Assembly (NCBI GenBank): GCA_902778935.1
Contig: CACYZT010000009.1
Coordinates: forward strand, 1-59,334
Source: an uncultured Bacteroidales bacterium
GTDB lineage: Bacteria; Bacteroidota; Bacteroidia; Bacteroidales; Paludibacteraceae
Reading direction: 5' to 3'
DNA length: 59,334 nt
The notes under the pieces were generated by a model. It saw nothing but the letters and a program-made list of their open reading frames with translations, had not been told where the DNA came from and ran no database searches. Below, piece after piece: positions 2,744 to 59,117 of the stretch (positions are counted from its first letter, which is position 1; every line of letters starts with the position of its first letter). Both the position numbers and the translations under genes were made by a program.

Positions 2744-3121
2744 ATGCATAATTTTAAGAATTTGCAAATATGGAAGGATGCCATGGATTTGGCACAAGAG
2801 GTCTATGAGATAGCGGAGCATCTCCCTAAGAATGAGACCTATGGACTGGTATCGCAAATGACGCGTGCCGCCGTTTCCGTGCCATCCAATATCGCCGAGG
2901 GTTCAGGTAGAACGAACAAAGATTTTGCGCATTTCTTGTCTATAGCCTTGGGCTCTTTGTTTGAATTGAATACCCAAATCATGTTAGCAGAGCGGATAGG
3001 GTATATTGATAACAGCCAGTCCGAAAATCTGCAAACAAAAGCCAACAAACTTCAGATGATGATTAGCGGTTTTAAGAGTCGCATGGAGCAGGATATCGAC
3101 CATCCGGTCATAGAGTTATAA
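2744..3121 (+). CDS. Four-helix-bundle protein (23S rRNA intervening-sequence protein family)
   Basis: 125 residues. The pattern 'NLQIWKDAMDLA...YGLVSQMTRAAVSVPSNIAEGSGR' is diagnostic of the four-helix-bundle family first seen in open reading frames of 23S rRNA intervening sequences and found as free-standing genes across Bacteroidota. Members form small helical oligomers; no activity is established. The gene stands alone between two mini-hairpin repeat clusters, with no visible promoter of the standard type, and could be a passenger of local repeat traffic. Start chosen at the conserved MHNFKNLQIW. Confidence 0.9.
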   Translation: MHNFKNLQIWKDAMDLAQEVYEIAEHLPKNETYGLVSQMTRAAVSVPSNIAEGSGRTNKDFAHFLSIALGSLFELNTQIMLAERIGYIDNSQSENLQTKANKLQMMISGFKSRMEQDIDHPVIEL

Positions 3122-47418: not shown

Positions 47419-49409
47419 GATTGTGCCTCCTTTTCTTGAGCCTCAGCAGCAGCCTTCGCCTCCGCTTCCTCTCGTTGATATTTCTTAAGTGTATCCAACA
47501 AGCTGATCACAGCTGCTACACTCGATGCGCTACTCATGCCGCCGCGGCCTTTGTATGGAGGGTTGGCATCGTAGAACTCGTTCAGCGTACCGATGGTCAA
47601 CTCGTTCATCTCGGCCTCGAAGCCAACCAGCACACGCTCCATGAAACTTGCGCCGCTGTACTTATATACGTTCATATAAGCGCGCGAATAAGCTGTGATA
47701 GTGGACGGCCAAACGATACCGTTGTACAGAGCACGCTCGCGGTTGATGGCCGAGATGTCGTAGTACGGATGGTACAAACCGCTCTTCGGACTCAGACTGC
47801 GCAAGCCTTTCGGCGTCAGCAGTTCCTTCGTGCATATATCGACAACCGCTTTCTGCTGTTTCCGGTCAAGCGGACTGTACGGCAATCCTGCCGCCCAAAT
47901 CATGTTCGGACGAACCTCGCGGTTCTGATAGTTGTCGATCACGTAGTCGTTCAGATAGATACCGTTCCAGAACGTCTTTACGAACGCGTCTTTCGTGATC
48001 TCTGCTTGATATTCCATCAGGTCGGCACTCGTGTCTTTGCCCATCTCGCGAAGCATCTCCGCTGTGAACCGCATAGCGTTGTACCAAAGGGCGTTGATCT
48101 CAACCAGATAACCCGTACGGGGCACAATCGGCCAACCGTTCTCCATCGCATTCATCCAGCTCGCAGGACGATGAGTGCCATCGACCCAAAGCAAACCGTT
48201 CTGATGCAACTTCGCACGAGGATGGTTCTGTTTGCGATACCAACTGATGATGTCCAGACAGAGCTGACCATACAAATCGGCTGCCTCGCGTACCGTATAT
48301 TTGTGTGCGAATTTCTGACAAGCGCGAACGAACCAAAGCAGCACATCCGGCTCATCCATACCCGTCATCTTGTTCTCGTTGCCGCGGCCGTTCATGAAAT
48401 TCAAAATCTCTCCGATAGCCGTCTCGTCCACAATCGCCTTCCAGTATTCCGGACGGTCGATGTCCAGCGTGCAGCTCGCTACGGAGAAGAACGTCGTGCG
48501 GGCATCTGCCTTGAACCACGGGAAACCGGCTAACAGATAGCACTTGTCCCCTTCGCGTTTGTAGAACTGACTCGCGCTGTTCTTCAGAGTTGTGAACATG
48601 TCCAGACGTTTGTTGCGACGCTCCAGCTCTTTCTTCCAAACGGTCTTCAACTGACTCGTCTGACATTCTGTCACACCGCCGGCGAAGATAACACTCTCGC
48701 CTTTCTTCATCGGCAACTCGAAATAACCCGGTACTAACAAATCTTCTTTATACGCATAGCCGCGGTCGCGCTCTTTGCGATAAACGATATCTTTGTACCA
48801 TTGCGGGTCGTGGTGGTATTCCACTGCCTTGCTGAACTGCATGTACAGGTTCGGGAATCCCGGGTACATCCGGTTGAAACGGCCGTTCTCGCACTCGTCC
48901 ATGTTCGAGTTCGCTAACGGGTTCTCGTGCGTCAACTCGTTCACGCTGCGGAAAGCAAGGAATGGACGGAAACGAAGAATCGTCGGACTACCGGATTCAA
49001 GCAACGTGTAACGAATCAGCACACGCGGCTCGAAACTTACCAGTAAACGCTCTTTCTGCAATACCATCGCGCCTACGCGATACGTCGTGCGCGAAATCAA
49101 CTCGCAGTCAAACTCACGGATGTACTTGTGTCCGTTCGGACTGAAATGGTTCTCGCTGTATTCGTGCAGACCTAAGTTGAACTCAGCACCGTGTTGGATG
49201 ACCGTCTCGTCCAGAGAACTGAGCAACACGTAGTTGTCGTCCCCTAAGGTCGGAATAGGCATCACCAACTGGCCGTGGTACTTACGCGTGTTGCAATCAA
49301 CGATGGTCGTCGAGTTGTACACACCTGCACGGTTCGTTCGAATCATCTCTTTCTGAAGCGACCGCTCCAGATTAACAAGTACTGTCTTGTCAAAATTAAG
49401 ATAACTCAT
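47415..49409 (-). CDS. Glycogen debranching enzyme (amylo-alpha-1,6-glucosidase, GH133)
   Basis: 664 residues. It removes the alpha-1,6 branch stubs of glycogen. The N-terminal immunoglobulin-like part (RAGVYNSTTIVDCNTRKYHG) is followed by an (alpha/alpha)6 catalytic domain with LWVDGTHRPASWMNAMENGWP, VRPNMIWAAGLPYSPLD and SLSPKSGLYHPYY. It overlaps the GT4 gene by ATGA, so the two are translationally coupled. No promoter is evident directly upstream; a cloverleaf element of the opposite orientation occupies the spacer. Confidence 0.92.
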   Translation of the reverse strand: MSYLNFDKTVLVNLERSLQKEMIRTNRAGVYNSTTIVDCNTRKYHGQLVMPIPTLGDDNYVLLSSLDETVIQHGAEFNLGLHEYSENHFSPNGHKYIREFDCELISRTTYRVGAMVLQKERLLVSFEPRVLIRYTLLESGSPTILRFRPFLAFRSVNELTHENPLANSNMDECENGRFNRMYPGFPNLYMQFSKAVEYHHDPQWYKDIVYRKERDRGYAYKEDLLVPGYFELPMKKGESVIFAGGVTECQTSQLKTVWKKELERRNKRLDMFTTLKNSASQFYKREGDKCYLLAGFPWFKADARTTFFSVASCTLDIDRPEYWKAIVDETAIGEILNFMNGRGNENKMTGMDEPDVLLWFVRACQKFAHKYTVREAADLYGQLCLDIISWYRKQNHPRAKLHQNGLLWVDGTHRPASWMNAMENGWPIVPRTGYLVEINALWYNAMRFTAEMLREMGKDTSADLMEYQAEITKDAFVKTFWNGIYLNDYVIDNYQNREVRPNMIWAAGLPYSPLDRKQQKAVVDICTKELLTPKGLRSLSPKSGLYHPYYDISAINRERALYNGIVWPSTITAYSRAYMNVYKYSGASFMERVLVGFEAEMNELTIGTLNEFYDANPPYKGRGGMSSASSVAAVISLLDTLKKYQREEAEAKAAAEAQEKEAQS

Positions 49410-49560
49410 GATTGTGATTTAATATTAAGTAATGTATTGTTGTTATAATTATTTTTTCTAATTAATCTCACTACTATCCACTAAAAAATATCGTATTGAT
49501 TCTATAAATTACAGATATTAAATATTGATATTTTAAGTAAACGGATTTGATTTGAAAATG

Positions 49561-49719
49561 TTTTTTATGTTTATTGCTTTTGCAGGCTTTTACTCGTAGA
49601 GTGTGGGATTTAGTGGTAAAAACTATCCGAAAGCTTGCTTGCGAGGAGTTTTTAGCAGTAAAGCCCATGAGCGCTTTGCGCTAAAGCCTGCAAAAGGGTT
49701 TATCTATGTTTTTTTTTCT
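49561..49719 (+). repeat. Cloverleaf element, copy 1
   Basis: Ends: TTTATGTTTATTGC on the left, GGGTTTATCTATGTTTTTT on the right. Predicted stems: P1 of 15 perfect pairs (49577-49591 with 49682-49696), P2 ACTC-GTA-GAGT (49592-49602), P3 of 21 positions with purine mismatches (49604-49624 with 49647-49667) tipped by AAGCTTGCTT, P4 AGCGC-TTT-GCGCT (49670-49682). The element points opposite to both neighbouring genes. Confidence 0.85.
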
Positions 49720-49742
49720 AAATAATCTATCGTTCTATCGTT

Positions 49743-49830
49743 CTGTCGCTCTATCGGTAAATCGGTCTATCAGTCCGAAGGACGGTCTGTCAGCGCAAGC
49801 GGTCTGTATTCTGTCAGCGCAGCGGTCTTA
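49743..49830 (+). repeat. Mini-hairpin repeat cluster after the cloverleaf element
   Basis: Units with arms TCC-GAA-GGA, GCGCAAGC and GC-GCA-GC between CTGTCAG and CGGTC. With copy 1 of the cloverleaf and AT-rich DNA it makes up the whole 419-bp gap between 49409 and 49828; nothing else is visible there. Confidence 0.85.
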
Positions 49831-51072
49831 CAACTCGCTCACAAACTGCTTTATCCGCTGCTCCTCAGCGCGTTTGCAAATCAGTAGCGCACCTTGTTCC
49901 TCCGCAATAATCATATCGTCCACACCTTGCACAATCGCTATTTTGCCCGGCTCCAGCACGACGATATTGCCTTCCGCCTCATGGAAATAAGCCTTGCTGT
50001 GCAGACTCACATTCCGGTTCTCGTCTTTCTCACTCAACTCATACAGACTGCCCCAGGTGCCCAAGTCGCTCCAACCGAAACTTGACGGCAACACGTACAC
50101 ATTTTCCGCTTTCTCCATGATTCCGTAGTCGATGGAGATGTTCGGACATTTCGGGAAAATCTCTTCGATGAACTTCTCCTCGCGCTCTGTGCCCATCAGC
50201 AACTCGCCCTCACGGAAACGGTCTGCCACTTCCGGCAGCAAATAACGGAATGCCTCGCTTATCGTCTTCAGGTTCCAGATGAAAATACCCGAATTCCACA
50301 GGAAATCGCCGCTCTCCAGGAACACTTTCGCCATCTCCAAATTCGGCTTCTCCGTAAACGTCTTCACCGGATAAATCCCATCAAGTAATTCAGTCTGTGC
50401 TCTGTCAGCGTCAGCGGTCTGTATTCTGTCAGCGCAGCGGTCTTTTATAAACTGAATGTAACCGTACCCCGTCTCCGGACGAGTCGGCTTCATTCCCAGC
50501 GTCGCTATCGCATCGTGCTGACTCACGAACGCAAAAGCCTTGCTAATCGTCTCGCGGAATTTCTCTTCCTCCAGTATCAAATGGTCACTCGCCGCCACCA
50601 CGATATTCGCTTGCATCTCCGGCTTGCTCCAGTCGATATCTTGATAGTTCGGCAAACTACTGTTGCCGCCTTTTATCTTACCTTCCTTCGTGAAGCCCTC
50701 AAACTGCTTGCTCTCGTCTTTCGTCAAACCATAGGCTTTTTGCAGACACAACGCCCTTATATGCGCAGTCGCGTACGCGATACAAGGAGCCGTATTACGA
50801 CGCGCAGGCTCACATAAAATCTGACCTTCCGCCAAATCCGGTATCTGCTCCAATATCATCTGCTTATACGCCACATTCGTCACAATGAACACGTTCTCTA
50901 TCGGCACTAACGGACGAAAACGGTCCACCGTCATCTGAAGCAAACTTCTACCCGTGCCGAAAAAGTCCAGAAACTGCTTCGGCTTACTCTCGCGGCTGAA
51001 CGGCCAGAAACGACTTCCTACGCCGCCCGCCATAATCACGCAATAGTTATTTTGATTCTTATCTACCATCAT
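49828..51072 (-). CDS. manC: Mannose-1-phosphate guanylyltransferase, with a repeat-derived insertion
   Basis: 414 residues. The enzyme makes GDP-mannose for glycans. The nucleotidyltransferase signature GGVGSRFWPFSRESKPKQFL is at 16-35, the ASDHLI metal motif at 161-166, and ETGYGYIQF, VKTFTEKP and FLWNSGIFIWN follow. The C-terminal mannose isomerase half of the bifunctional enzyme is absent, as in the Bacteroidota single-domain type. Residues 210-229 (around ADRIQTADADRAQTELL) are translated mini-hairpin repeats between GYIQFIKD and DGIYPVKTF, where relatives have a few residues. The gene has a standard promoter over 150 bp upstream. Confidence 0.92.
   Translation of the reverse strand: MMVDKNQNNYCVIMAGGVGSRFWPFSRESKPKQFLDFFGTGRSLLQMTVDRFRPLVPIENVFIVTNVAYKQMILEQIPDLAEGQILCEPARRNTAPCIAYATAHIRALCLQKAYGLTKDESKQFEGFTKEGKIKGGNSSLPNYQDIDWSKPEMQANIVVAASDHLILEEEKFRETISKAFAFVSQHDAIATLGMKPTRPETGYGYIQFIKDRCADRIQTADADRAQTELLDGIYPVKTFTEKPNLEMAKVFLESGDFLWNSGIFIWNLKTISEAFRYLLPEVADRFREGELLMGTEREEKFIEEIFPKCPNISIDYGIMEKAENVYVLPSSFGWSDLGTWGSLYELSEKDENRNVSLHSKAYFHEAEGNIVVLEPGKIAIVQGVDDMIIAEEQGALLICKRAEEQRIKQFVSEL
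50385..50443 (+). repeat. Mini-hairpin repeats inside manC
   Basis: Units CTGTCAGCGTCAGCGGTC and CTGTCAGCGCAGCGGTC, separated by TGTATT, in the orientation antisense to the gene; reading frame kept. Confidence 0.88.
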
Positions 51073-51094
51073 TGTTTTGTATAGTTTTTCTTAG

Positions 51095-51163
51095 TATTAG
51101 ATCAAATCCTCAAATCTTCAAATCTTCAAATCCTCTAACCCCCTAATCCTCTAATCTTGCCGC
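51095..51163. repeat. Simple repeat of AAATCTTC / TAATCCTC units
   Basis: Tandem 8-9 bp units upstream of manC, followed at 51168-51214 by mini-hairpin repeats. Confidence 0.8.
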
Positions 51164-51167
51164 TATA

Positions 51168-51214
51168 TCAGTCTGTCAGCGAAGCGGTCTGTGTTCTGTT
51201 AGCGCAGCGGTCTT
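51168..51214 (+). repeat. Mini-hairpin repeat cluster
   Basis: CAGTCTGTCAGCGAAGCGGTC and CTGTTAGCGCAGCGGTC in the manC leader. Confidence 0.85.
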
Positions 51215-51227
51215 CCTAAAAATTGTG

Positions 51228-51258
51228 CAAAGATACAAAAACTTTTTCATATATGCAA
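51228..51258 (-). promoter_or_regulatory. Promoter of manC
   Basis: Minus strand TTG at 51258-51256, 20 bp spacer, TATCTTTG at 51235-51228. The leader of about 150 nt consists of the repeats above. Confidence 0.85.
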
Positions 51259-51302
51259 GCGCGCACGTACATTTTTATAAAAAATGTGCCTTTTTTGACT
51301 AA

Positions 51303-51345
51303 AATAGTAAAAAATCGTAAATCGTAAATCGTTAAATCGTAAATT
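51303..51345 (+). repeat. AATCGTA simple repeat at the gldD promoter
   Basis: Four copies of AAATCGTA/TTAAATCGT occupy the position where the -33 element of gldD would lie. Confidence 0.8.
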
Positions 51346-51350
51346 TTTTG

Positions 51351-51358
51351 TACCTTTG
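51351..51358 (+). promoter_or_regulatory. -7 box of gldD
   Basis: TACCTTTG; no TTG is found at the usual 20 bp upstream because simple repeat fills that site. Confidence 0.7.
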
Positions 51359-51387
51359 TATCGTATTTTGGCTCATTGTGTGCAAAA

Positions 51388-52032
51388 ATGAACAAAGAGA
51401 ATAGGGAAAATAGTTATTTATGTTTATCGCCGACGAACAACTGCAACCGCTTTAGTGGTGTGTTTGCGGTTTATCTTTGTTTATTTTTTATATTTTTTAC
51501 AGCTTGCACGAAAAACACTACACCCAAGCCTTACGGCTATTATCGTATCACCCCGCCCGACACAGCGTATATCCCTTTCGATAATTACCAATCACCAATT
51601 ACCAATTACCCGTACTCTTTCGCCCTTTCCACCAACGCTGTCGTTCAACCCCGAACGGACGAACCCTATTGGATTAACCTCTACTATCCCGCGTTGAATG
51701 CAACCATCCATTGTTCCTACAAACCCGTGCAAAACAACCTGCGCGAATTGACCAACGATGCACTCGAATTTGTCTATCGGAATGCCTCTTTTGCGAGCGC
51801 TATTCCTGAAAGCGAATATAGCCATCCCGAAGCACACGTGTACGGCGTTCTCTTTGATTTAGAGGGAAATACAGCTTCGTCCTGCCAGTTCTTCGTAACC
51901 GACTCCACGCGTCATTTCTTCCGCGCATCGGTCTATTGTAACTGCCCGCCGAACGCCGATTCGCTCGCTCCCGTGTACAACTATCTCCGCACAGACATCA
52001 TCCGCATGGTCGAATCTTTTGAATGGAAATAA
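51388..52032 (+). CDS. gldD: Gliding motility/T9SS lipoprotein GldD
   Basis: 214 residues from the ATG at 51388 (a TTG at 51376 would add four). GldD is a lipoprotein needed for gliding and for type IX secretion. The mature part matches the family: KPYGYYRITPPDTAYIPFD, LNATIHCSYKP, VYGVLFDLEGNTASSCQFF, DSLAPVYNYLRTDIIRMVESFEWK. The lipobox FFTAC puts the acylated Cys at residue 40, so the leader is unusually long. Codons about 10-34 coincide with a miniature cloverleaf element whose right end encodes the hydrophobic core (VYLCLFFIFF). A short ACCAATT repeat in codons 66-75 encodes YQSPITNY. Confidence 0.9.
   Translation: MNKENRENSYLCLSPTNNCNRFSGVFAVYLCLFFIFFTACTKNTTPKPYGYYRITPPDTAYIPFDNYQSPITNYPYSFALSTNAVVQPRTDEPYWINLYYPALNATIHCSYKPVQNNLRELTNDALEFVYRNASFASAIPESEYSHPEAHVYGVLFDLEGNTASSCQFFVTDSTRHFFRASVYCNCPPNADSLAPVYNYLRTDIIRMVESFEWK
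51415..51492 (+). repeat. Miniature cloverleaf element in the gldD signal-peptide region
   Basis: Left end TTTATGTTTATCGCCGAC and right end GGTTTATCTTTGTTTATTT match copy 2 (52061). The interior is reduced to an outer stem (CCG..AACA with TGTT..CGG) and one hairpin ACCGC-TTTA-GTGGT (51446-51459). It is read in frame by gldD. Confidence 0.75.
51585..51612 (+). repeat. ACCAATT simple repeat inside gldD
   Basis: TTACCAATCACCAATTACC with a further copy, in frame in the conserved N-terminal part of the mature protein. Confidence 0.7.
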
Positions 52033-52060
52033 CAAACAATGAATCATATAGATAAAATTT

Positions 52061-52218
52061 TATTTATGTTTATTGCCGACAGTGGTTGTTATCTCGTAGA
52101 GATGTAGGTTAGGATGATTGAGCGGCTTGGAAGCTTGCTTACGAAGACGCACAAGCAGCCTAAGCTACACAGCCCGAAGGGCAACAACCAATGGAGGGGT
52201 TTATCTTTGTTTATTTAC
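52061..52218 (+). repeat. Cloverleaf element, copy 2
   Basis: Ends TTTATGTTTATTGCC and GGGGTTTATCTTTGTTTATTT. P1 TGGTTGTT/AACAACCA (52083-52090 with 52183-52190), P2 ATCTC-GTA-GAGAT (52091-52103), P3 of 21 positions with four purine mismatches (52104-52124 with 52148-52168) tipped by AAGCTTGCTT, P4 GCCC-GAA-GGGC (52172-52182). Almost every stem base differs from copy 1, yet pairing is kept. The right end carries TATCTTTG (52202-52209), a possible -7 box 20 bp before tadA. Confidence 0.87.
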
Positions 52219-52228
52219 AATTTTTATT

Positions 52229-52666
52229 ATGACAGAGGATGAAAAATATATGAGCCTGGCGCTCGAGGAAGCGCGAAAAGCGCTTGCCGCTGACGAAATA
52301 CCCATCGGCTGTGTCATCGTCTGTCAGGGACAAATCATCGGACGCGGACATAACCTCACCCAGACGCTCCAGGACGTCACAGCGCACGCAGAGATGCAAG
52401 CCATCACAGCCGCAGAACAGACGCTCGGAGGCAAATATCTGCCGGACGCCACGCTCTATGTCACGGTCGAACCATGCCCTATGTGCGCAGGAGCCATCGG
52501 ATGGGCGCAAATCAGTCGAATCGTCTATGGCGCACCCGATCCCAAACGTGGCTACACCCTCTTCGCACCCCGCGTCCTACATCCCAAAACAACCGTCACT
52601 TCCGGCATCCTCGCCGAAGAATGTAAATCGCTAATACAGAACTTTTTTCAAAATAAAAGAATATGA
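52229..52666 (+). CDS. tadA: tRNA-specific adenosine deaminase
   Basis: 145 residues from the ATG at 52229. The frame is open further upstream, through the cloverleaf element, but the family N-terminus MTEDEKYMSLALEEA starts here. TadA converts adenosine-34 of tRNA-Arg(ACG) to inosine. The zinc site is complete: HAEMQAI with His and catalytic Glu at about 53-55, and PCPMC with the two Cys at about 83-86. The next gene overlaps by four bases (ATGA). Confidence 0.95.
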   Translation: MTEDEKYMSLALEEARKALAADEIPIGCVIVCQGQIIGRGHNLTQTLQDVTAHAEMQAITAAEQTLGGKYLPDATLYVTVEPCPMCAGAIGWAQISRIVYGAPDPKRGYTLFAPRVLHPKTTVTSGILAEECKSLIQNFFQNKRI

Positions 52667-54534
52667 AAATACCACACGTCCCATCAGCAGCTTTCCGCCT
52701 CGGCGCATTCGCCACGCTGGCAGCAGTCATCGTGCTTATCTTCCCGCGCTACAACAATGCCTTCCGTTTCCACTATGAAATAGGCAAACCCTGGGGCTAC
52801 TCAACGCTCACGGCGGATTTTGACTTCCCTATCTACAAAACCGACGAACAGATGGACCGCGACCAGAAACAACTCCTTTCTACCTTCGCGCCTATCTTCA
52901 AATATATCCCTCGCGTCCAGCGCGAAGTACGAGTCATCTCGCTCGCACACATGGAGTGGCTCCAAGCCGAAGGATACTCGCGTATCACTATCGGAAAAGA
53001 CAAATATCCTGTGTCCGACATCTTCACGCCCAAAACAGCCTTTACGCGTTACGGCTATGATTGTGCCATCAATCTAACCCTCGATACCGCCAAAACGGAG
53101 GACCTCCGCGATAAGCTCCTTCAGTCCATTTCGCCTACGCAGGGACTCGTGCAAAAGGGCGAAAAAATCATCGATAAAGGCGAAGTCGTAACCGAGCGTA
53201 CCTATCAGATTCTCAACTCTTTACGCAGGGCGTACGAAGATGAATCAATCGGACATAAACAGCGCACGCTCTCTATCTTTGGAGAGGCGATGTTGGTAGT
53301 CCTTTTCCTATGCCTGCTGGTCATTTATCTCTATGTCTTCCGCCTCAATTATCTCCAATCGACATCCACGGTTCTCTTCTATTGCCTCCAGATCTTCATC
53401 GTCATAGCCCTGGCGTGTCTGGCGTTGCGGTTCAATCTCTCTGTCTATCTCATCCCCTTCGCGTGGGTACCTATATTAACGCGCGTGTTCCTCGACTCGC
53501 GTACCGCCCTCTTCCTGCATATCACCACTATCCTTATCGCCTCAATTGTGGTTCCGGCGCCGGTGGAGTTCTTCTTCATCCAGATAGTGGTCGGAATGGT
53601 GGCTGTCTCGTCTCTCTCGGATATGACGCGCCGCGCACAACTCGTCCAGACGGCCGCTTGGATTCTCCTCTCGCAAGTAGTCTCTTATACCGCTATCACG
53701 TTTGCCCAAACGGGCGCTATCACGGCAATCGATCCTTGGATGTATTTCTATTTCTTCATCTGCGCACTCCTTACCGTCGGTTGTTACGGACTGATTTATA
53801 CTTTTGAGAAGATGTTCCATTTCGTCTCCTCTATCACGCTGGTTGAACTGACGGATGTCAACTCCGAACTCCTTCTCCAGTTGGCGGAAAAAGCACCCGG
53901 CACCTTCCAGCACTCCATGCAGGTCTCGAATCTGGCTGCTGAGGCGGCAAAAGCTATCGGAGCGAACGCCCTTCTTGTCCGTACGGGCGCACTCTATCAT
54001 GATATAGGTAAGATGGTGGACCCGCTCTATTTTGTGGAGAATCAAACAGGGGTGGAGAATCCGCTCCTTAAGATGGACCCGCGCGATGCGGCGCAAGTAA
54101 TCATCTCCCATGTCTCCGAAGGAGAGAAACTCGCACGCAAGCATCATCTGCCCGAAGCCATCATCAATTTCATTACTACCCACCATGGCACGTCGCTCGT
54201 GCGCTATTTCTACAATACTTATTGTAACGAGCACCCGAATGAGAAAGTGGATGAGTCGCTCTTCCGCTATCCCGGTCCCAGACCGACCACAGTCGAAGGA
54301 GCCGTTCTTATGATGGCGGACGCCATCGAAGCACGTTCGCGGAGCCTCACGGATTTCTCGGAAGCATCAATCGCACAAGCGGTTAATCAGATGATTGAGA
54401 GCCAGATAGCCGATGGCCAGTTCGCGGAAACGAAACTCAGCTTCAAGGATGTCGAAGACATCCGCCGTGTCTTCACCTCCCGCCTCACCGCCATGAACCA
54501 TCATCGCATCTCATACCCAACCCTGAACAAGTAA
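52663..54534 (+). CDS. HD-domain phosphohydrolase of the PgpH/YqfF type
   Basis: 623 residues. An N-terminal membrane segment is followed by an extracytoplasmic 7TMR-HDED domain (about 30-205), a seven-helix membrane bundle (about 210-395) and a cytoplasmic HD domain with ELLLQLAEKAPGTFQHSMQVSNLA, the HD pair in YHDIGKM and HVSEGEKLA. PgpH of this layout hydrolyses cyclic di-AMP; that is the best guess for function, though Bacteroidota nucleotide substrates for this branch are less tested. Its ATG overlaps tadA. The stop is followed by a mini-hairpin unit and cloverleaf copy 3. Confidence 0.9.
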   Translation: MKIPHVPSAAFRLGAFATLAAVIVLIFPRYNNAFRFHYEIGKPWGYSTLTADFDFPIYKTDEQMDRDQKQLLSTFAPIFKYIPRVQREVRVISLAHMEWLQAEGYSRITIGKDKYPVSDIFTPKTAFTRYGYDCAINLTLDTAKTEDLRDKLLQSISPTQGLVQKGEKIIDKGEVVTERTYQILNSLRRAYEDESIGHKQRTLSIFGEAMLVVLFLCLLVIYLYVFRLNYLQSTSTVLFYCLQIFIVIALACLALRFNLSVYLIPFAWVPILTRVFLDSRTALFLHITTILIASIVVPAPVEFFFIQIVVGMVAVSSLSDMTRRAQLVQTAAWILLSQVVSYTAITFAQTGAITAIDPWMYFYFFICALLTVGCYGLIYTFEKMFHFVSSITLVELTDVNSELLLQLAEKAPGTFQHSMQVSNLAAEAAKAIGANALLVRTGALYHDIGKMVDPLYFVENQTGVENPLLKMDPRDAAQVIISHVSEGEKLARKHHLPEAIINFITTHHGTSLVRYFYNTYCNEHPNEKVDESLFRYPGPRPTTVEGAVLMMADAIEARSRSLTDFSEASIAQAVNQMIESQIADGQFAETKLSFKDVEDIRRVFTSRLTAMNHHRISYPTLNK

Positions 54535-54542
54535 TGAAAGAA

Positions 54543-54563
54543 GGTCTTTCAGCGGAGCGGTCT
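54543..54563 (+). repeat. Single mini-hairpin repeat
   Basis: GGTCTTTCAGCGGAGCGGTC (loop GGA), 8 bp before cloverleaf copy 3. Confidence 0.8.
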
Positions 54564-54570
54564 AATAATG

Positions 54571-54730
54571 TTTTTTATGTTTATTGCTTTTGAAGGCTTT
54601 TTCTCGTTAGAGTGCGGAGTTTGCTGCTATAAACTATCTGGGAGTTTACTCACAAGGAGTTTTTAGCAGCAAAGTACGCATAAAGCATAGCTCAAAAGCC
54701 TTTAAAAGGGTTTATCTATGTTTATTTTCT
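54571..54730 (+). repeat. Cloverleaf element, copy 3
   Basis: Ends TTTTTTATGTTTATTGC and GGGTTTATCTATGTTTATTTTC. P1 of 15 positions, one mismatch (54587-54601 with 54694-54708), P2 CTC-GTTA-GAG (about 54603-54612), P3 of 23 positions (54613-54635 with 54658-54680) tipped by GAG-TTTA-CTC, P4 AGC-ATA-GCT (about 54685-54692). The dus start codon lies 4 bp after the right end. Confidence 0.87.
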
Positions 54731-54733
54731 TTA

Positions 54734-55894
54734 ATGAATAAATTATATTTAGCACCGATGGAAGATGTGACGGATCCGGCGTTTAGAGCATTGTGCAAGC
54801 GCTACGGAGCCGACCGCGTCTATACCGAGTTCGTCAACGCTGACGCACTCGTCCGCGACATCGCCTCCACCACACGCAAACTGACCATCCATGACGCCGA
54901 ACGACCGGTAGCCATTCAGATCTACGGACGCGAACCCGAATCGATGGCGGAGGCCGCGCGTATCGTCGAAACGGCGAAACCCGACTTTATTGACATCAAT
55001 TTCGGCTGTCCCGTCAAAAAAGTAGCCGGTAAAGGAGCCGGAGCAGGACTTCTGAAAGATGTCCCCAAAATGCTATCCATAGCCAGAGCCGTTGTGAACG
55101 CCGTTCATACTCCTGTCACCTGCAAAACCCGCCTCGGCTGGGACGAAAACGACCTCCTTCCAAGAGTTAATCCCCTTGACCTACCAAAATCCTACAGCGT
55201 TAGCGGTCTTACAGCAGAGCGGTCTTACAGTGATAACGGTCTTACAGGCGAAGCCGGTCATAAATCGACTTTTATTGTCGATTTATCTCTTGCCTTGCAA
55301 GACTGCGGCATCCAGGAACTCGCCATCCACGGCCGAACGCGTTCGCAGATGTACCGAGGCGAAGCCGACTGGACCCTCATCGGAGAAGTCAAAAACTCCC
55401 CGCGCATACACATACCTATTATAGGTAACGGGGACGTGTGTACGCCTGAGCGCGCGAAGGAATGTTTCGATCGTTACGGCGTGGACGCAATCATGATAGG
55501 CCGTGCTACCTTCGGTGCCCCATGGCTCTTCGCCGAAATGAAAGAATATCTCAACACCCCGCATGGCTATCTTACAGGCGAAGCCGGTCTGTCTCCTGTC
55601 ACCCCGCATGGCTATCTTACAGGCGAAGCCGGTCTTACAGCGGTGGTACCACCACCGCGGTCAATGGAAGAAAAGGTAAATGTTCTTAAGGAACATGTGC
55701 TTTCTTCCATTACCTGGTGTTCCGACGAACGCAAAGGCATCGTCCATTCCCGCCGTCATTTCGCAGCCTCGCCGGTCTTCAAAGGCCTGCCGGACTTCCG
55801 CCAAACCCGCATCGCACTCCTCCGTGCCGAAACCAAAGACGAAGTCTTTTCAATCATGGACTCCATCGTTGCCCGCTGGGGAAATGTCCAATAA
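54734..55894 (+). CDS. dus: tRNA-dihydrouridine synthase, with two repeat-derived insertions
   Basis: 386 residues against about 320-330 usual. Dus reduces uridines in the D-loop of tRNA with FMN and NADPH. The FMN-binding N-terminus LAPMEDVTD, the catalytic cysteine in NFGCPVKK (Cys92), TCKTRLGWDEN, HGRTRSQMY and GNGDV are intact. Residues about 140-182 (LTAERSYSDNGLTGEAG) and 275-308 are translated mini-hairpin repeats. The second includes a perfect-layout 15-residue tandem copy (TPHGYLTGEAGLSPV then TPHGYLTGEAGLTAV; 55556-55600 and 55601-55645). Both fall in segments where relatives have variable loops, so activity may be kept. Confidence 0.92.
   Translation: MNKLYLAPMEDVTDPAFRALCKRYGADRVYTEFVNADALVRDIASTTRKLTIHDAERPVAIQIYGREPESMAEAARIVETAKPDFIDINFGCPVKKVAGKGAGAGLLKDVPKMLSIARAVVNAVHTPVTCKTRLGWDENDLLPRVNPLDLPKSYSVSGLTAERSYSDNGLTGEAGHKSTFIVDLSLALQDCGIQELAIHGRTRSQMYRGEADWTLIGEVKNSPRIHIPIIGNGDVCTPERAKECFDRYGVDAIMIGRATFGAPWLFAEMKEYLNTPHGYLTGEAGLSPVTPHGYLTGEAGLTAVVPPPRSMEEKVNVLKEHVLSSITWCSDERKGIVHSRRHFAASPVFKGLPDFRQTRIALLRAETKDEVFSIMDSIVARWGNVQ
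55190..55262 (+). repeat. Mini-hairpin repeat cluster inside dus (first)
   Basis: GGTCTTACAG units with arms CGTTAGCG, CAGAGCG, TGATAACG and GCGAAGCC in frame. Confidence 0.88.
55556..55645 (+). repeat. 45-bp tandem duplication built on a mini-hairpin unit, inside dus
   Basis: Two 45-bp copies differing at a few positions, each holding TTACAGGCGAAGCCGGTCT (palindrome GGC-GAA-GCC). The copy number change is a multiple of three. Confidence 0.9.
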
Positions 55895-55920
55895 CCCGTG
55901 TCCAATAACGAAAAAAATTT

Positions 55921-56080
55921 TATTTATGTTTATTGCTTTGAGTGCTTTATACTCGCAGAGTTGCGGAGTTAGGGGATAAAAGCCGTCTGGGAGTTTACTC
56001 ACAAGTGGGTTTTAGCTCCGAAGTACGCAAGAAGCATCGCTTCTAAAGCACTCAAAGGGTTTATCTATGTTTATTTTCTT
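55921..56080 (+). repeat. Cloverleaf element, copy 4
   Basis: Ends TATTTATGTTTATTGC and GGGTTTATCTATGTTTATTTTC. P1 of 14 perfect pairs (55936-55949 with 56044-56057), P2 ACTC-GCA-GAGT (55951-55961), P3 of 23 positions with six purine mismatches (55962-55984 with 56007-56029) tipped by GAG-TTTA-CTC, P4 AGAAGC-ATC-GCTTCT (56030-56044). The next start codon is 11 bp after the right end. Confidence 0.87.
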
Positions 56081-56091
56081 TTAAATAAATT

Positions 56092-57165
56092 ATGAAGCGT
56101 TTTTTTGATTCCAATGCCCTCTGGCTCTCGATGGTCATCGGCGCTCTCGGCTACCGTTACCTCTTGCCCTTGGCTCCCATTCTCCCGTGGCTGATTTTCT
56201 TCATGTTGTTCTTCACGTTCTGCAAGGTGAATCCGCTGGACCTTCGTCTGCATAAATGGCATTGGGTAGTACTCGCCGCACAACTCTTCTTGGGTCTCGC
56301 ATCCTACCTCTTAACGCTCTCTCTCTCGCATAATCCTGTCCTCGCGCAGGGTCTCCTTATGTGTTTTATCATGCCCACAGCCACAGCGGCTCCTATCATC
56401 GCTGGCAAAATGGGTGGTTCGATACAAAACCTCACGACCTTTACCCTTCTCTCTAATTTCGCAACAGCCCTCATCGTACCGGCTACTTTCCCGCTCATCA
56501 ACCCTGCATCCGACATGACCTTCTGGCCTGCTTTCTTGCTCATTCTCAGCCGAGTAGCTCCTTTGCTTCTGGGACCTTTCTTCTCTGCATGGCTCCTAAG
56601 AATCATCTACAACGCTTATTACCGCAAAAAATATCTGTCAGTGAACGACAGTGAACGGTCTGTCAGCGTAAGCGGTCTGTCAGCGAAGCGGTCTGTCAGC
56701 CCAGAGGGCGGTCCAAAGGAATTTGAACTATCCCCTGGACTTGCTCAAATTCCTTTCTACCTTTGGGTCGCTTCCATCATCGTCCTTTCCGCCGTCGTCA
56801 CCAAAACTGTGATAGCAAATTTTCATTCTTCATTATTCATTATTCTTTGTCTCTTCGTATCTTCCTTCTTCGCTTGTCTTTTGCAGTTTGGACTCGGTAA
56901 ACTCATTGGCTATTATCTGCCGGCTCCCAGCAAAGGAAAGGACTACCAGGATGTCCTCATCAACCCTGCTGCAGCTCCTACTACCATGGCTGGTGTCAGT
57001 TCTATTACAGCAGGACAGGCTTTCGGACAAAAGAACACCTCTCTTGGCGTTTGGATGGCGAATGCTTTCCTCGATCCCATGTCTTCTCTTGGCGCCGCAG
57101 CCTATATCATCTGGCAGAACATCTTCAATTCCGTCCAACTCGCCCTCGCCGCCCATAAAAAATAA
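56092..57165 (+). CDS. Bile acid:sodium symporter (BASS)-type transporter, with a repeat-derived loop
   Basis: 357 residues with about ten membrane segments in the BASS/AEC-like arrangement. The conserved CFIMPTATAAPIIAGKMGGS (91-110) is the crossover region of this superfamily, and a second half-repeat follows near INPAAAPTTMAGVSSITAGQAFG. Substrate unknown; bile acids or small organic anions are possible. Residues 181-208 (around SERSVSVSGLSAKRSVS) are translated mini-hairpin repeats lying between two membrane segments. A later stretch (NFHSSLFII, about 56815-56850) is coded by TTCATTATTC-type simple repeat within a membrane helix. Confidence 0.85.
   Translation: MKRFFDSNALWLSMVIGALGYRYLLPLAPILPWLIFFMLFFTFCKVNPLDLRLHKWHWVVLAAQLFLGLASYLLTLSLSHNPVLAQGLLMCFIMPTATAAPIIAGKMGGSIQNLTTFTLLSNFATALIVPATFPLINPASDMTFWPAFLLILSRVAPLLLGPFFSAWLLRIIYNAYYRKKYLSVNDSERSVSVSGLSAKRSVSPEGGPKEFELSPGLAQIPFYLWVASIIVLSAVVTKTVIANFHSSLFIILCLFVSSFFACLLQFGLGKLIGYYLPAPSKGKDYQDVLINPAAAPTTMAGVSSITAGQAFGQKNTSLGVWMANAFLDPMSSLGAAAYIIWQNIFNSVQLALAAHKK
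56636..56712 (+). repeat. Mini-hairpin repeat cluster inside the BASS-type gene
   Basis: Four units of the CTGTCAGCG(n)AGCGGTC kind, including CTGTCAGCGAAGCGGTC and CTGTCAGCCCAGAGGGCGGTC, in frame. Confidence 0.88.
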
Positions 57166-57446: not shown

Positions 57447-58301
57447 ATGGCTCAAGAAGAAACTATCAAATTATTTGAAGGCAAACAGGTCCGCTATGTT
57501 TGGGATAACGAGCAAGAAAAGTATTTTTTTTCCATCGTTGATATCATTCAAGTATTAACCGATTCGGATAGTCCTCGCAAATATTGGAGTGTCCTAAAAA
57601 CAAGGCTCAAACAGGAAGGAAGCGAGTTGGCTACAAATTGTAGTCAACTGAAATTGCAGGCTTCTGACGGAAAGAAGTACCTTACCGATGTGGCTGATAC
57701 AGAGCAAGTTCTCCGGTTGATACAATCCGTTCCGAGCAAGAAAGCCGAGCCGTTCAAGTTATGGCTTGCGCATCTGGGGCAAGAGCGAATGAATCAACTT
57801 CAAGATCCCGAACTAAGTATCGAGCAAGCCATTAAGGACTACCGTCGTTTGGGCTATTCTGAGGAATGGATTAATCAACGTATTAAGACTATCGAGATTC
57901 GCAAAGCGCTGACTGACGAATGGAAACGAGGTGGAATGGAAGAGGACAAGGACTATGCTATCCTGACGGATATTATCTCGAGGACTTGGAGCGGAATGAC
58001 TACGCGCGAGTATAAGGAACATAAAGGACTGCGCAAAGAAAGTCTGCGGGACAACATGACGAATGTTGAACTGATGCTTAATGGCTTGGCTGAAGCAGCG
58101 GCAACGGAGTTAAGTAAACGTGAGAATCCAAAAGGCTTTGCACAGAATGCCCAAGTGGCGCAACGCGGAGGAAACGTCGCTCATGTGGCGCGAGAACAAT
58201 TGGAGCAAGAATTAGGCGAGACGATAATATCATCTAAACGAGCAATTAATTTTACCGCTCCACCCGAAGAGTTACCTTTTAACTCTGAGCCGGAAAAGTA
58301 A
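57447..58301 (+). CDS. Bro-N domain protein, DinD-like
   Basis: 284 residues. The N-terminal half (VRYVWDNEQEKYFFSIVDIIQVLTD, to about 110) is the Bro-N domain of phage antirepressors and baculovirus BRO proteins. The C-terminal half contains GLRKESLRDNMTNVELMLNGLAEAAATEL and GFAQNAQVAQRGGNVA, the pattern of DNA-damage-inducible protein D, which in E. coli counters RecA filaments. Function here (stress response, antirepressor-like DNA binding) is inference. The gene is framed by the two copies of the promoter module, so it could have been inserted or duplicated as a unit; no transposase is visible. Confidence 0.85.
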   Translation: MAQEETIKLFEGKQVRYVWDNEQEKYFFSIVDIIQVLTDSDSPRKYWSVLKTRLKQEGSELATNCSQLKLQASDGKKYLTDVADTEQVLRLIQSVPSKKAEPFKLWLAHLGQERMNQLQDPELSIEQAIKDYRRLGYSEEWINQRIKTIEIRKALTDEWKRGGMEEDKDYAILTDIISRTWSGMTTREYKEHKGLRKESLRDNMTNVELMLNGLAEAAATELSKRENPKGFAQNAQVAQRGGNVAHVAREQLEQELGETIISSKRAINFTAPPEELPFNSEPEK

Positions 58302-58982: not shown

Positions 58983-59097
58983 CCTTCGGTTTTTGATAAA
59001 CGCCCGCTTTATCTGCCCTCCTCCTAACCGAAAAATACAACATTAAATAACAAACGATCTTTAGACACTATTTTGGACCTGTCCGCAAACCTTTTGT

Positions 59098-59117
59098 AGG
59101 GTTTATCTATGTTTTTG
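59098..59117 (+). repeat. Lone right end of the cloverleaf element
   Basis: AGGGTTTATCTATGTTTTT without a recognisable left end or stem partners within 100 bp upstream. Confidence 0.65.

Follow-up and report, generated by a model that had tools for sequence, protein, structure and literature searches.

Intergenic cloverleaf elements in Paludibacteraceae-type Bacteroidales: a fold preserved by compensatory change and a probable family of mobile DNA

Background

What maintains a common fold in intergenic repeats whose letters differ widely from copy to copy? The question is raised by a stretch of 59,334 nucleotides (hereafter the window), contig C9 of a 2.18-Mb draft genome (41 contigs, 90% complete) of an uncultured bacterium of the Paludibacteraceae, in which four elements of 150–152 nt share T-rich ends and can adopt a four-helix cloverleaf. 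The original prediction, made by a model from the letters of the window, located the four copies, described shared ends, strongly differing interiors and one fold recognisable by eye, and concluded that this fold is under selection and belongs to no family it could recognise. It left the choice between RNA and single-stranded DNA open and made no proposal of mobility. The analysis described here finds one cloverleaf-like fold that is preserved by compensatory change while the letters vary widely. Probably, though by no means securely, the elements belong to a family of mobile DNA in Bacteroidales of the Paludibacteraceae type, as its ends or as what is left of it in solo or miniature form; the family would be moved as folded single-stranded DNA by an enzyme acting in trans.

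Structure of the element

All four copies lie on the forward strand, at most three bases from where they had been predicted: copy 1 at 49564..49713 (150 nt; E-value 2.3e-28 with covariance model R1, 151 bits with model R2), copy 2 at 52063..52214 (152 nt; R1 E 7e-23, R2 133 bits), copy 3 at 54574..54725 (152 nt; R1 E 2e-29) and copy 4 at 55923..56074 (152 nt; R1 E 1.8e-26, R2 137 bits). R1 was built from eight copies aligned with MAFFT, and searches were made with cmsearch. From TTTATG to GTTTAT, over 150–152 nt, the element consists of the left end TTTATGTTTATTGC, the 5' side of stem P1 (14 pairs), the hairpin P2, the long stem P3, which is interrupted by internal loops and capped by a short hairpin, the hairpin P4, the return of P1 and the right end G(G)GTTTATCTWTGTTTWT. 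In copy 4 these parts are the 5' side of P1 at 55936..55949, P2 with a GCA triloop at 55951..55961, the long imperfect stem P3 with an apical TTTA hairpin at 55962..56029, P4 at 56031..56043 and the 3' side of P1 at 56044..56057, all on the forward strand. The shared ends are as predicted; the right-end pattern has 15 matches in the genome against none for a reversed control and, with up to three mismatches, 8 in the window against 0.17 in shuffled sequence. The strong difference between interiors is true of copy 2, the most divergent of the window copies, throughout its length, but copies 1, 3 and 4 have much of P3 in common. The list of four full copies also proved right as far as it went, but it missed a short remnant of 68 nt (51417..51484, forward strand; R2 E 2.9e-4), which has both ends and a deleted interior, and an isolated right end (59100..59116, forward strand) within a weak model match at 59070–59116 (R2 E 0.23). 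The remnant, in the region 51376–51500, overlaps the start of the gldD reading frame and would encode part of the N-terminal region.

In the eight-copy MAFFT alignment RNAalifold finds 34 pairs, 25 of which show changes on both sides. A larger alignment, A4, comprises 130 sense copies from the source genome and 21 others; it was collected at a stricter E-value than an earlier set of 136 rows, which had included five antisense rows, and a few weak rows were dropped in this way. Across the 130 copies, double changes are present in all 45 pairs of the structure (41.3 when shuffled), 91.8% of 5730 cells are paired (61.4% when shuffled), and the covariation score is 0.773 against 0.225 for shuffled columns and at most 0.117 for slid partners. 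A4 is fitted to the model, and so biased towards structure, and its copies are related, but the effect far exceeds the controls, and against its lean to the model can be set the smaller alignment, with 25 of 34 pairs already doubly changed. The claim of selection on the fold is thus upheld by compensatory change in every pair and an overall effect far above shuffles, in a check of the covariation made with pair counts and shuffled controls instead of R-scape.

The common structure is shared by all four window copies, as the original prediction had it, but the agreement does not extend to their energy minima as RNA: under RNA parameters the minimum-energy fold of copies 2 and 4 is P1–P4, and that of copies 1 and 3 pairs the P2 region with the P4 region instead. 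Under DNA parameters all four form the cloverleaf, copies 1 and 3 under these parameters only. A scan of the window against Rfam at gathering thresholds returned one tRNA and no match to the copies, and a scan of nine loci at E up to 0.1 returned one miRNA match, below its own threshold, in keeping with the earlier failure to recognise a described family. The family appears to be new, strongly structured, intergenic and mobile-looking, with no match in the open literature searched, a body that leaves out most subscription papers.

The folded molecule

Mispairs within the helices are distributed unequally between the strands. On the element strand the 130 copies contain 301 G-T against 51 A-C and 213 G-A against 35 T-C mispairs, and 59 representatives of less than 70% identity contain 150 G-T against 22 A-C. 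The asymmetry of G-T and A-C therefore points to the folding of a single strand and not to a symmetric cruciform, and the folding strand is that named in the original prediction (TTTATG..GTTTAT). P1, P2 and P4 occur together in the minimum-energy fold of 104 of the 130 copies under DNA parameters and of 85 under RNA parameters (48 and 31 of the 59 representatives). The element strand is the more stable as DNA, at a mean energy of -30.3 compared with -21.5 for the complement, which also forms P1, P2 and P4 in 88 of 130 cases.

The loops are of restricted types (counts for representatives in brackets). P2 triloops read C(GNA)G in 36 of 59 copies (14 of 23) and P2 tetraloops C(GNNA)G in 41 of 57 (17 of 25), only 18 of these 41 being GNRA and 23 having a pyrimidine in third place; P4 triloops read C(GNA)G in 48 of 97 (20 of 37). 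The tip of P3 is a two-base loop with a Watson-Crick closing pair in 125 of 126 copies (55 of 56), and its apex is YTTR in 90 of 126 (36 of 56). No UUCG occurs among the 4-nt loops counted in P2 and P4, but CCTTCGG, a 5-nt loop in P2, allows a reading as a UUCG tetraloop. TTTA and CTTG loops are favoured in DNA. GNA and GNNA loops are extraordinarily stable DNA mini-hairpins, according to PMC4686876.

The flanks of the elements, read in element orientation, are C-rich, with a mean GC skew of -0.055 that is negative in 98 of 130 cases. By neighbours, the skew is -0.090 where the copy is antisense to both genes (n=42), -0.021 where it is sense to both (n=35), and -0.048 (n=20) and -0.057 (n=17) where the flanking genes lie on opposite strands. 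The leading strand is usually G-rich, and the assignment of the template strand depends on this; we read the pattern as a replication-strand preference of the copies. Orientation relative to genes is balanced: by simple calls of reading frames, 44 of 131 copies are antisense to both neighbours (in 3 of these a frame spans the copy), 38 are sense to both, 37 are mixed and 12 lack one side. Because of the strand asymmetry, the loop types, the folds under DNA parameters and the replication-strand bias, we favour single-stranded DNA as the likely folded molecule, with RNA as the remaining alternative.

Empty sites, pairs and cargo

Comparison of aligned loci gives good support to the presence and absence of elements among relatives at several sites and to the insertion of a head-to-head unit at one. 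Copy 3 lies between a 7TM-HD gene and dus (Pfam), a site that is empty in most relatives examined: in 30 loci taken from 58 matches, an R2 cloverleaf is present in G000 and G002 only, 27 loci lack it, and the spacer of one further locus (G035) reads N. Two loci from related metagenome-assembled genomes, L271 (RUG11067) and L259 (RGIG4295), have aligned blocks of at least 300 bp that are 90–99% identical, and their long coding blocks are 97% identical. At the end of the PGM gene the stretch between matching blocks is 16 bp in L271 and 264 bp, including a cloverleaf, in L259; L259 also carries, between smpB and PGM, a GxxExxY gene and a weak cloverleaf (E 4e-4), both absent from L271. At a site that both loci share (L271:4675–4826, L259:4002–4153) identity is 84% between the cloverleaves, 96% in the right flank and 87% in the left; the L259 cloverleaf resembles a different copy from its own genome more (88%) than it does that of L271. 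Both arms of P2 and of P4 differ between these two copies, and their outer ends are identical.

In G005 a unit of 1,077 bp, made up of a cloverleaf, a TPR gene and a second cloverleaf, stands between a gene for a sigma54-type regulator and recF (Pfam). The gap between regulator and recF measures -13 to +184 bp in 23 of 29 other recF loci, out of 56 genomes with recF; the remaining six are contig ends or other arrangements, and the gap of one of the 23 closed junctions, in G034, holds a weak solo cloverleaf (E 3e-5). The TPR gene is present in 4 of 61 genomes, and its three close homologues (at least 83% identical) all adjoin cloverleaves at two different sites, namely recF in G005 and a position beside a GxxExxY gene in G029 and G007; the G007 site adjoins a methylmalonyl-CoA mutase gene, and the recF site of G029 is empty. 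The fourth homologue, 35% identical, is not beside a cloverleaf. A second cargo gene (145 aa, from G028) is likewise found in 4 of 61 genomes; one of its four loci has a cloverleaf. The repeats flanking G028 copies offered no clean empty site, and the neighbours at L137 and at tandem arrays, considered as cargo, were set aside as ordinary-looking, except for the GxxExxY gene of L259.

Pairs were counted in A4 together with 21 further matches, at loci with more than one copy. Less than 150 bp apart, 12 of 14 pairs are head-to-head, two are tandem (both in one G028 array) and none is tail-to-tail (p = 3e-6 against one in four, this and the other p-values being too small because the copies are related). 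The respective numbers are 2, 4 and 1 at 150–600 bp and 3, 18 and 2 at 600 bp or more, the excess of tandem pairs at a distance being as predicted from the strand bias. The members of a pair may come from different subfamilies (for example G000:C2:369345–369750), and some head-to-head pairs, which face each other by their left ends across gaps of 14 bp to 1.2 kb, enclose accessory genes.

Candidate enzymes

The largest recurrent family of reading frames in element loci is GxxExxY (PF13366, TIGR04256), found at eight loci on the left side of the element, a count that is biased in that four of the eight were fetched through the family and at least three share one neighbourhood with a mutase-like gene. 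The start codon lies 13–14 nt from the element in L132, L167, L182 and L213, 32 nt in L210 and 76 nt in L215; in L209 the called frame overlaps the element, and in L181 the 3' end of the gene is nearest. Seven of 30 loci fetched through the family carry a cloverleaf at E<1e-7, and L216, with a weak one, is not in the tree. In that tree of 32 proteins a single clade of 12 (support 99/96) contains all ten cloverleaf neighbours, and the 20 proteins outside it include none, numbers that near-copies inflate. The E and Y of ExxY, a D, and the E and K of ExK are invariant in the 26 proteins aligned.

The genus also has RAYT-like HUH proteins (RAYT, REP-associated tyrosine transposase; REP, repetitive extragenic palindrome), with 29 matches of 170–463 aa, 27 of which have both a PDHxH-type and a YxxxNP-type motif; the five tested against NF047646 score below its cut-off, with E-values from 9e-11 to 2e-4. 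The source genome encodes one such protein. These proteins are mostly of 310–460 aa with a long C-terminal part (L331:658–1656, L330, L332, L115–L130, L252:2095–3033), and by eye several of the genes have palindromes of some 20 nt on their flanks, for example GCCGAATGCCATTCGGC. No convincing cloverleaf was found at 37 loci fetched through Y1 or RAYT-like genes (29 through Y1_Tnp and 8 further). The only cloverleaf seen close to such a gene is in L252, about 80 bp from the gene start, a locus that was itself fetched through its cloverleaf.

Y1_Tnp (PF01797) has no match at E 0.001 in G000, G001, G005 and G028, with 19 to 25 R1 matches each; weak RAYT-like matches appear in the first three at E 0.003–0.08, and G028, with 22 element matches, has no Y1_Tnp match even at E 10. 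An IS200/IS605 enzyme was rejected on the result at E 0.001 in these four copy-rich genomes, a verdict weakened by the diverged RAYT-like proteins at weaker E. The four-helix genes of the 23S rRNA IVP type were also rejected as a partner, as R1 at E up to 1 found no cloverleaf at 30 of their loci.

Distribution

In the source genome R1 gave 28 matches at E up to 1: 20 full-length in sense orientation (E<2e-7), one at E 2e-4, two antisense echoes of the palindrome, three short and two weak. It matched 25 of 61 genomes, namely the source genome and 24 of 36 others of its genus (Paludibacteraceae-type metagenome-assembled genomes), and none of 24 from other families. A search of 393 genomes of the order with R2, which scored seven candidates per genome and is of low sensitivity, matched seven, comprising the source genome, two of the genus and four in three further families; among the seven candidates scored in each, three genomes from other genera of the same family gave no match. 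G271, of another family, has at least seven R2 matches with different ends (loci including L279, L285, L287, L289 and L291), and the neighbour gene at L291 is Amidase_2. A fold of four helices, related to the cloverleaf, directly adjoins a tRNA gene (L280, L282, L283) in three genomes, which come from two further families. Type-A ends were found in 27 stretches titled Paludibacteraceae or Bacteroidales, mostly from ruminant gut samples or RUG assemblies. Two exact end patterns had no match in viral contigs, and copy 4 had no blastn match in plasmids and phages.

A possible route of movement

If the elements are mobile in the way proposed above, a protein would read the fold in the single-stranded DNA of the TTTATG..GTTTAT strand, either at the replication fork or behind it. 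The folded element would allow an enzyme acting in trans to cut and join near the T-rich outer ends. A head-to-head pair could then travel as one unit, and a single element would represent one of the ends, a pair that has decayed or a miniature version; selection would act on the fold because copies unable to fold could not be moved. Two enzymes are candidates, the clade of GxxExxY PD-(D/E)XK nucleases that adjoins the elements and the RAYT-like HUH family of the genus. A more far-reaching version, which we put forward tentatively and consider rather unlikely, assigns the elements to a transposable class of a new kind. Each end would be a four-way junction of 150 nt of single-stranded DNA, with loops of the hyperstable DNA type, and would be recognised by its shape instead of its sequence; any gene between two facing ends would be carried along, and the GxxExxY nuclease would be the junction-processing enzyme of fuller copies.

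Several observations weigh against mobility of this kind. The source genome, with about 20 copies, has no GxxExxY match, nor have G005 and other copy-rich genomes; the RAYT-like gene of the source genome has no cloverleaf within the flanks fetched, and no autonomous copy with a proven transposase was found. The majority of copies are single and unpaired, the inserted DNA is longer than the 152-nt core and its edges are not uniform, and some copies lie inside a larger unit with other terminal repeats. TGAT at both edges of the G005 unit, a possible 4-bp duplication, is a single case seen by eye. A third difference between L271 and L259 runs in the opposite direction but aligns poorly, and conversion or exchange between copies may contribute no less than jumping to the form of the elements. 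The bias in GC skew is weak and falls short of significance (p 0.08) in copies that are sense to both neighbours (-0.021, n=35), and the choice between DNA and RNA rests on sequence and energy models.

Were the proposal correct, nature would offer here a clear example of mobile DNA in which the shape of the single strand is selected and the sequence is widely free, and there would be a lead on the GxxExxY proteins, a family to which the literature searched assigns no role. The unit of cloverleaf, gene and cloverleaf would be a concrete object whose movement can be assayed, and the presence of some 20 repeats per genome between the genes of a rumen and gut lineage would be explained.

Alternative explanations

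The fold might instead act as a transcribed structured RNA, itself mobile or binding or guiding a mobility protein, through which the DNA moves. Strong covariation and G-T pairs on one strand are also compatible with this; P1 of copy 2 contains tandem G-A mismatches, a known RNA motif, and the CCTTCGG loop of P2 can be taken for UUCG. We nevertheless hold it to be unlikely: the loops are mostly of DNA type, with GNNA extending beyond GNRA and UUCG missing from the counted 4-nt loops, the cloverleaf forms less often with RNA than with DNA parameters, and G-T pairs are rare in P1 (38 of 1800 cells) and P4 (6 of 503). Orientation, moreover, is random with respect to genes and non-random with respect to replication, Rfam has no match, and sigma70-like promoters are not in excess in a scan whose reach excludes Bacteroidales promoters. 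A role as REP-like substrates of the RAYT-like HUH proteins of the genus, in the manner of REPINs and with the cloverleaf as an unusually large REP, is a possibility, if a rather unlikely one. HUH enzymes act on single-stranded DNA hairpins, and a Bacteroidetes subclass of TnpA-REP, 2.6, is reported with atypical structures, undescribed there, that are copied elsewhere in the genome (both from PMC6006769); inverted pairs with spacers resemble REPINs as presented in PMC3116915. Both HUH motifs are present in 27 of 29 proteins, one of which the source genome encodes, and the L252 cloverleaf stands close to such a gene. That locus, however, was reached through its cloverleaf, and the 37 loci reached through the genes have no convincing one; several of the genes have their own flanking palindromes, and G028 carries 22 matches with no Y1_Tnp match at E 10.

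The elements could also be plain miniature inverted-repeat transposable elements (MITEs) of a DDE insertion sequence, moved by short terminal inverted repeats with the cloverleaf as a passenger. At L141, L161 and L169 the cloverleaf does form part of a unit some 280 bp long that has terminal inverted repeats resembling ATCACTACTGTCCACTAAAAA, and the repeat stands on one side only at window positions 49467–49487 and elsewhere. It is confined, though, to 17 scanned sources, among them several duplicates of a single site, and is missing from three of the four copies in the window; this is one type of terminal repeat, seen in a minority of copies, other types not having been searched systematically. 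A passenger sequence would moreover not maintain 45 pairs, and we consider a MITE origin very improbable. Just as little credit can be given to host regulatory or terminator elements kept for the expression of neighbours, to which one could point because copies 2–4 lie in sense orientation and stop 8 to 17 bases upstream of a start codon. Over 131 copies the orientation is random, and the same sites in relatives lack the element. A leader-RNA or riboswitch role was rejected on this random orientation, and an intrinsic terminator was rejected, as none of the three terminator-like sites in 49400–56300 falls on a copy.

Comparison with known systems

Integron attC sites resemble the elements in being folded single-stranded DNA of free sequence and fixed structure, whereas the neighbours of cloverleaves in the window include housekeeping genes. 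The elements have in common with REP/REPIN sequences and their RAYT (TnpA-REP) enzymes the dispersed intergenic distribution, the selected secondary structure and the inverted pairs with a spacer (PMC3116915). They differ in that a REP is a short hairpin with a GT[AG]G foot, whereas here a four-helix cloverleaf of 150 nt has T-rich ends, genes lie inside some pairs, and the 37 loci fetched through Y1 or RAYT-like genes are without a convincing cloverleaf. As for the inverted doublet as the main mobile unit, a REPIN trait, the 12 inverted close pairs and the one inserted paired unit stand beside copies that are mostly single.

TnpA-REP subclass 2.6 comes from the same phylum and has structures near its Y1 gene with copies elsewhere in the genome, but the HUH motif there is NHxH, as given in PMC6006769, and here mostly PDHxH, with a Y1-like gene beside a cloverleaf once (L252). 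The atypical secondary structures of that subclass could prove to be the same thing as the cloverleaf, their form being undescribed in the text available. The ends of IS200/IS605 elements are likewise single-stranded DNA hairpins tied to the replication strand, but they are hairpins of about 20–25 nt with guide tetranucleotides (same source), and no typical IS200 transposase is tied to cloverleaves. The bcr1 repeat of the Bacillus cereus group is a high-copy repeat with mobile features and TTTAT motifs, according to PMC6542083; it belongs to a different phylum and is likened here by description, not by sequence. Of the known kinds, REPINs and bcr1 come nearest to the cloverleaf elements.

Other features of the window

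Copy 1 lies between a glycogen debranching gene, whose start faces it, and a gene for a ManC-like nucleotidyl transferase, whose 3' end does, and is antisense to both; copy 2 lies between gldD and a deaminase gene of the cytidine/deoxycytidylate type (all Pfam), and copy 4 between dus and the gene that follows it. A second repeat, TCTGTCAGCGNAGCGGTC, occurs with up to three mismatches in 27 copies between positions 1169 and 58422, against 0.11 expected, for example at 50425–50442, 55207–55224 and 56676–56709, often in runs spaced by 16 bp. Several copies are inside reading frames (49828–51072, 54734–55894, 56092–57165), which stay open. A gene of the 23S rRNA IVP four-helix type, one of five in the genome, is found at 2744–3121 with the 16-bp-spaced repeat on both sides, and the protein encoded at 57447–58301 contains a BRO-N domain, of a kind frequent in phages and mobile DNA.

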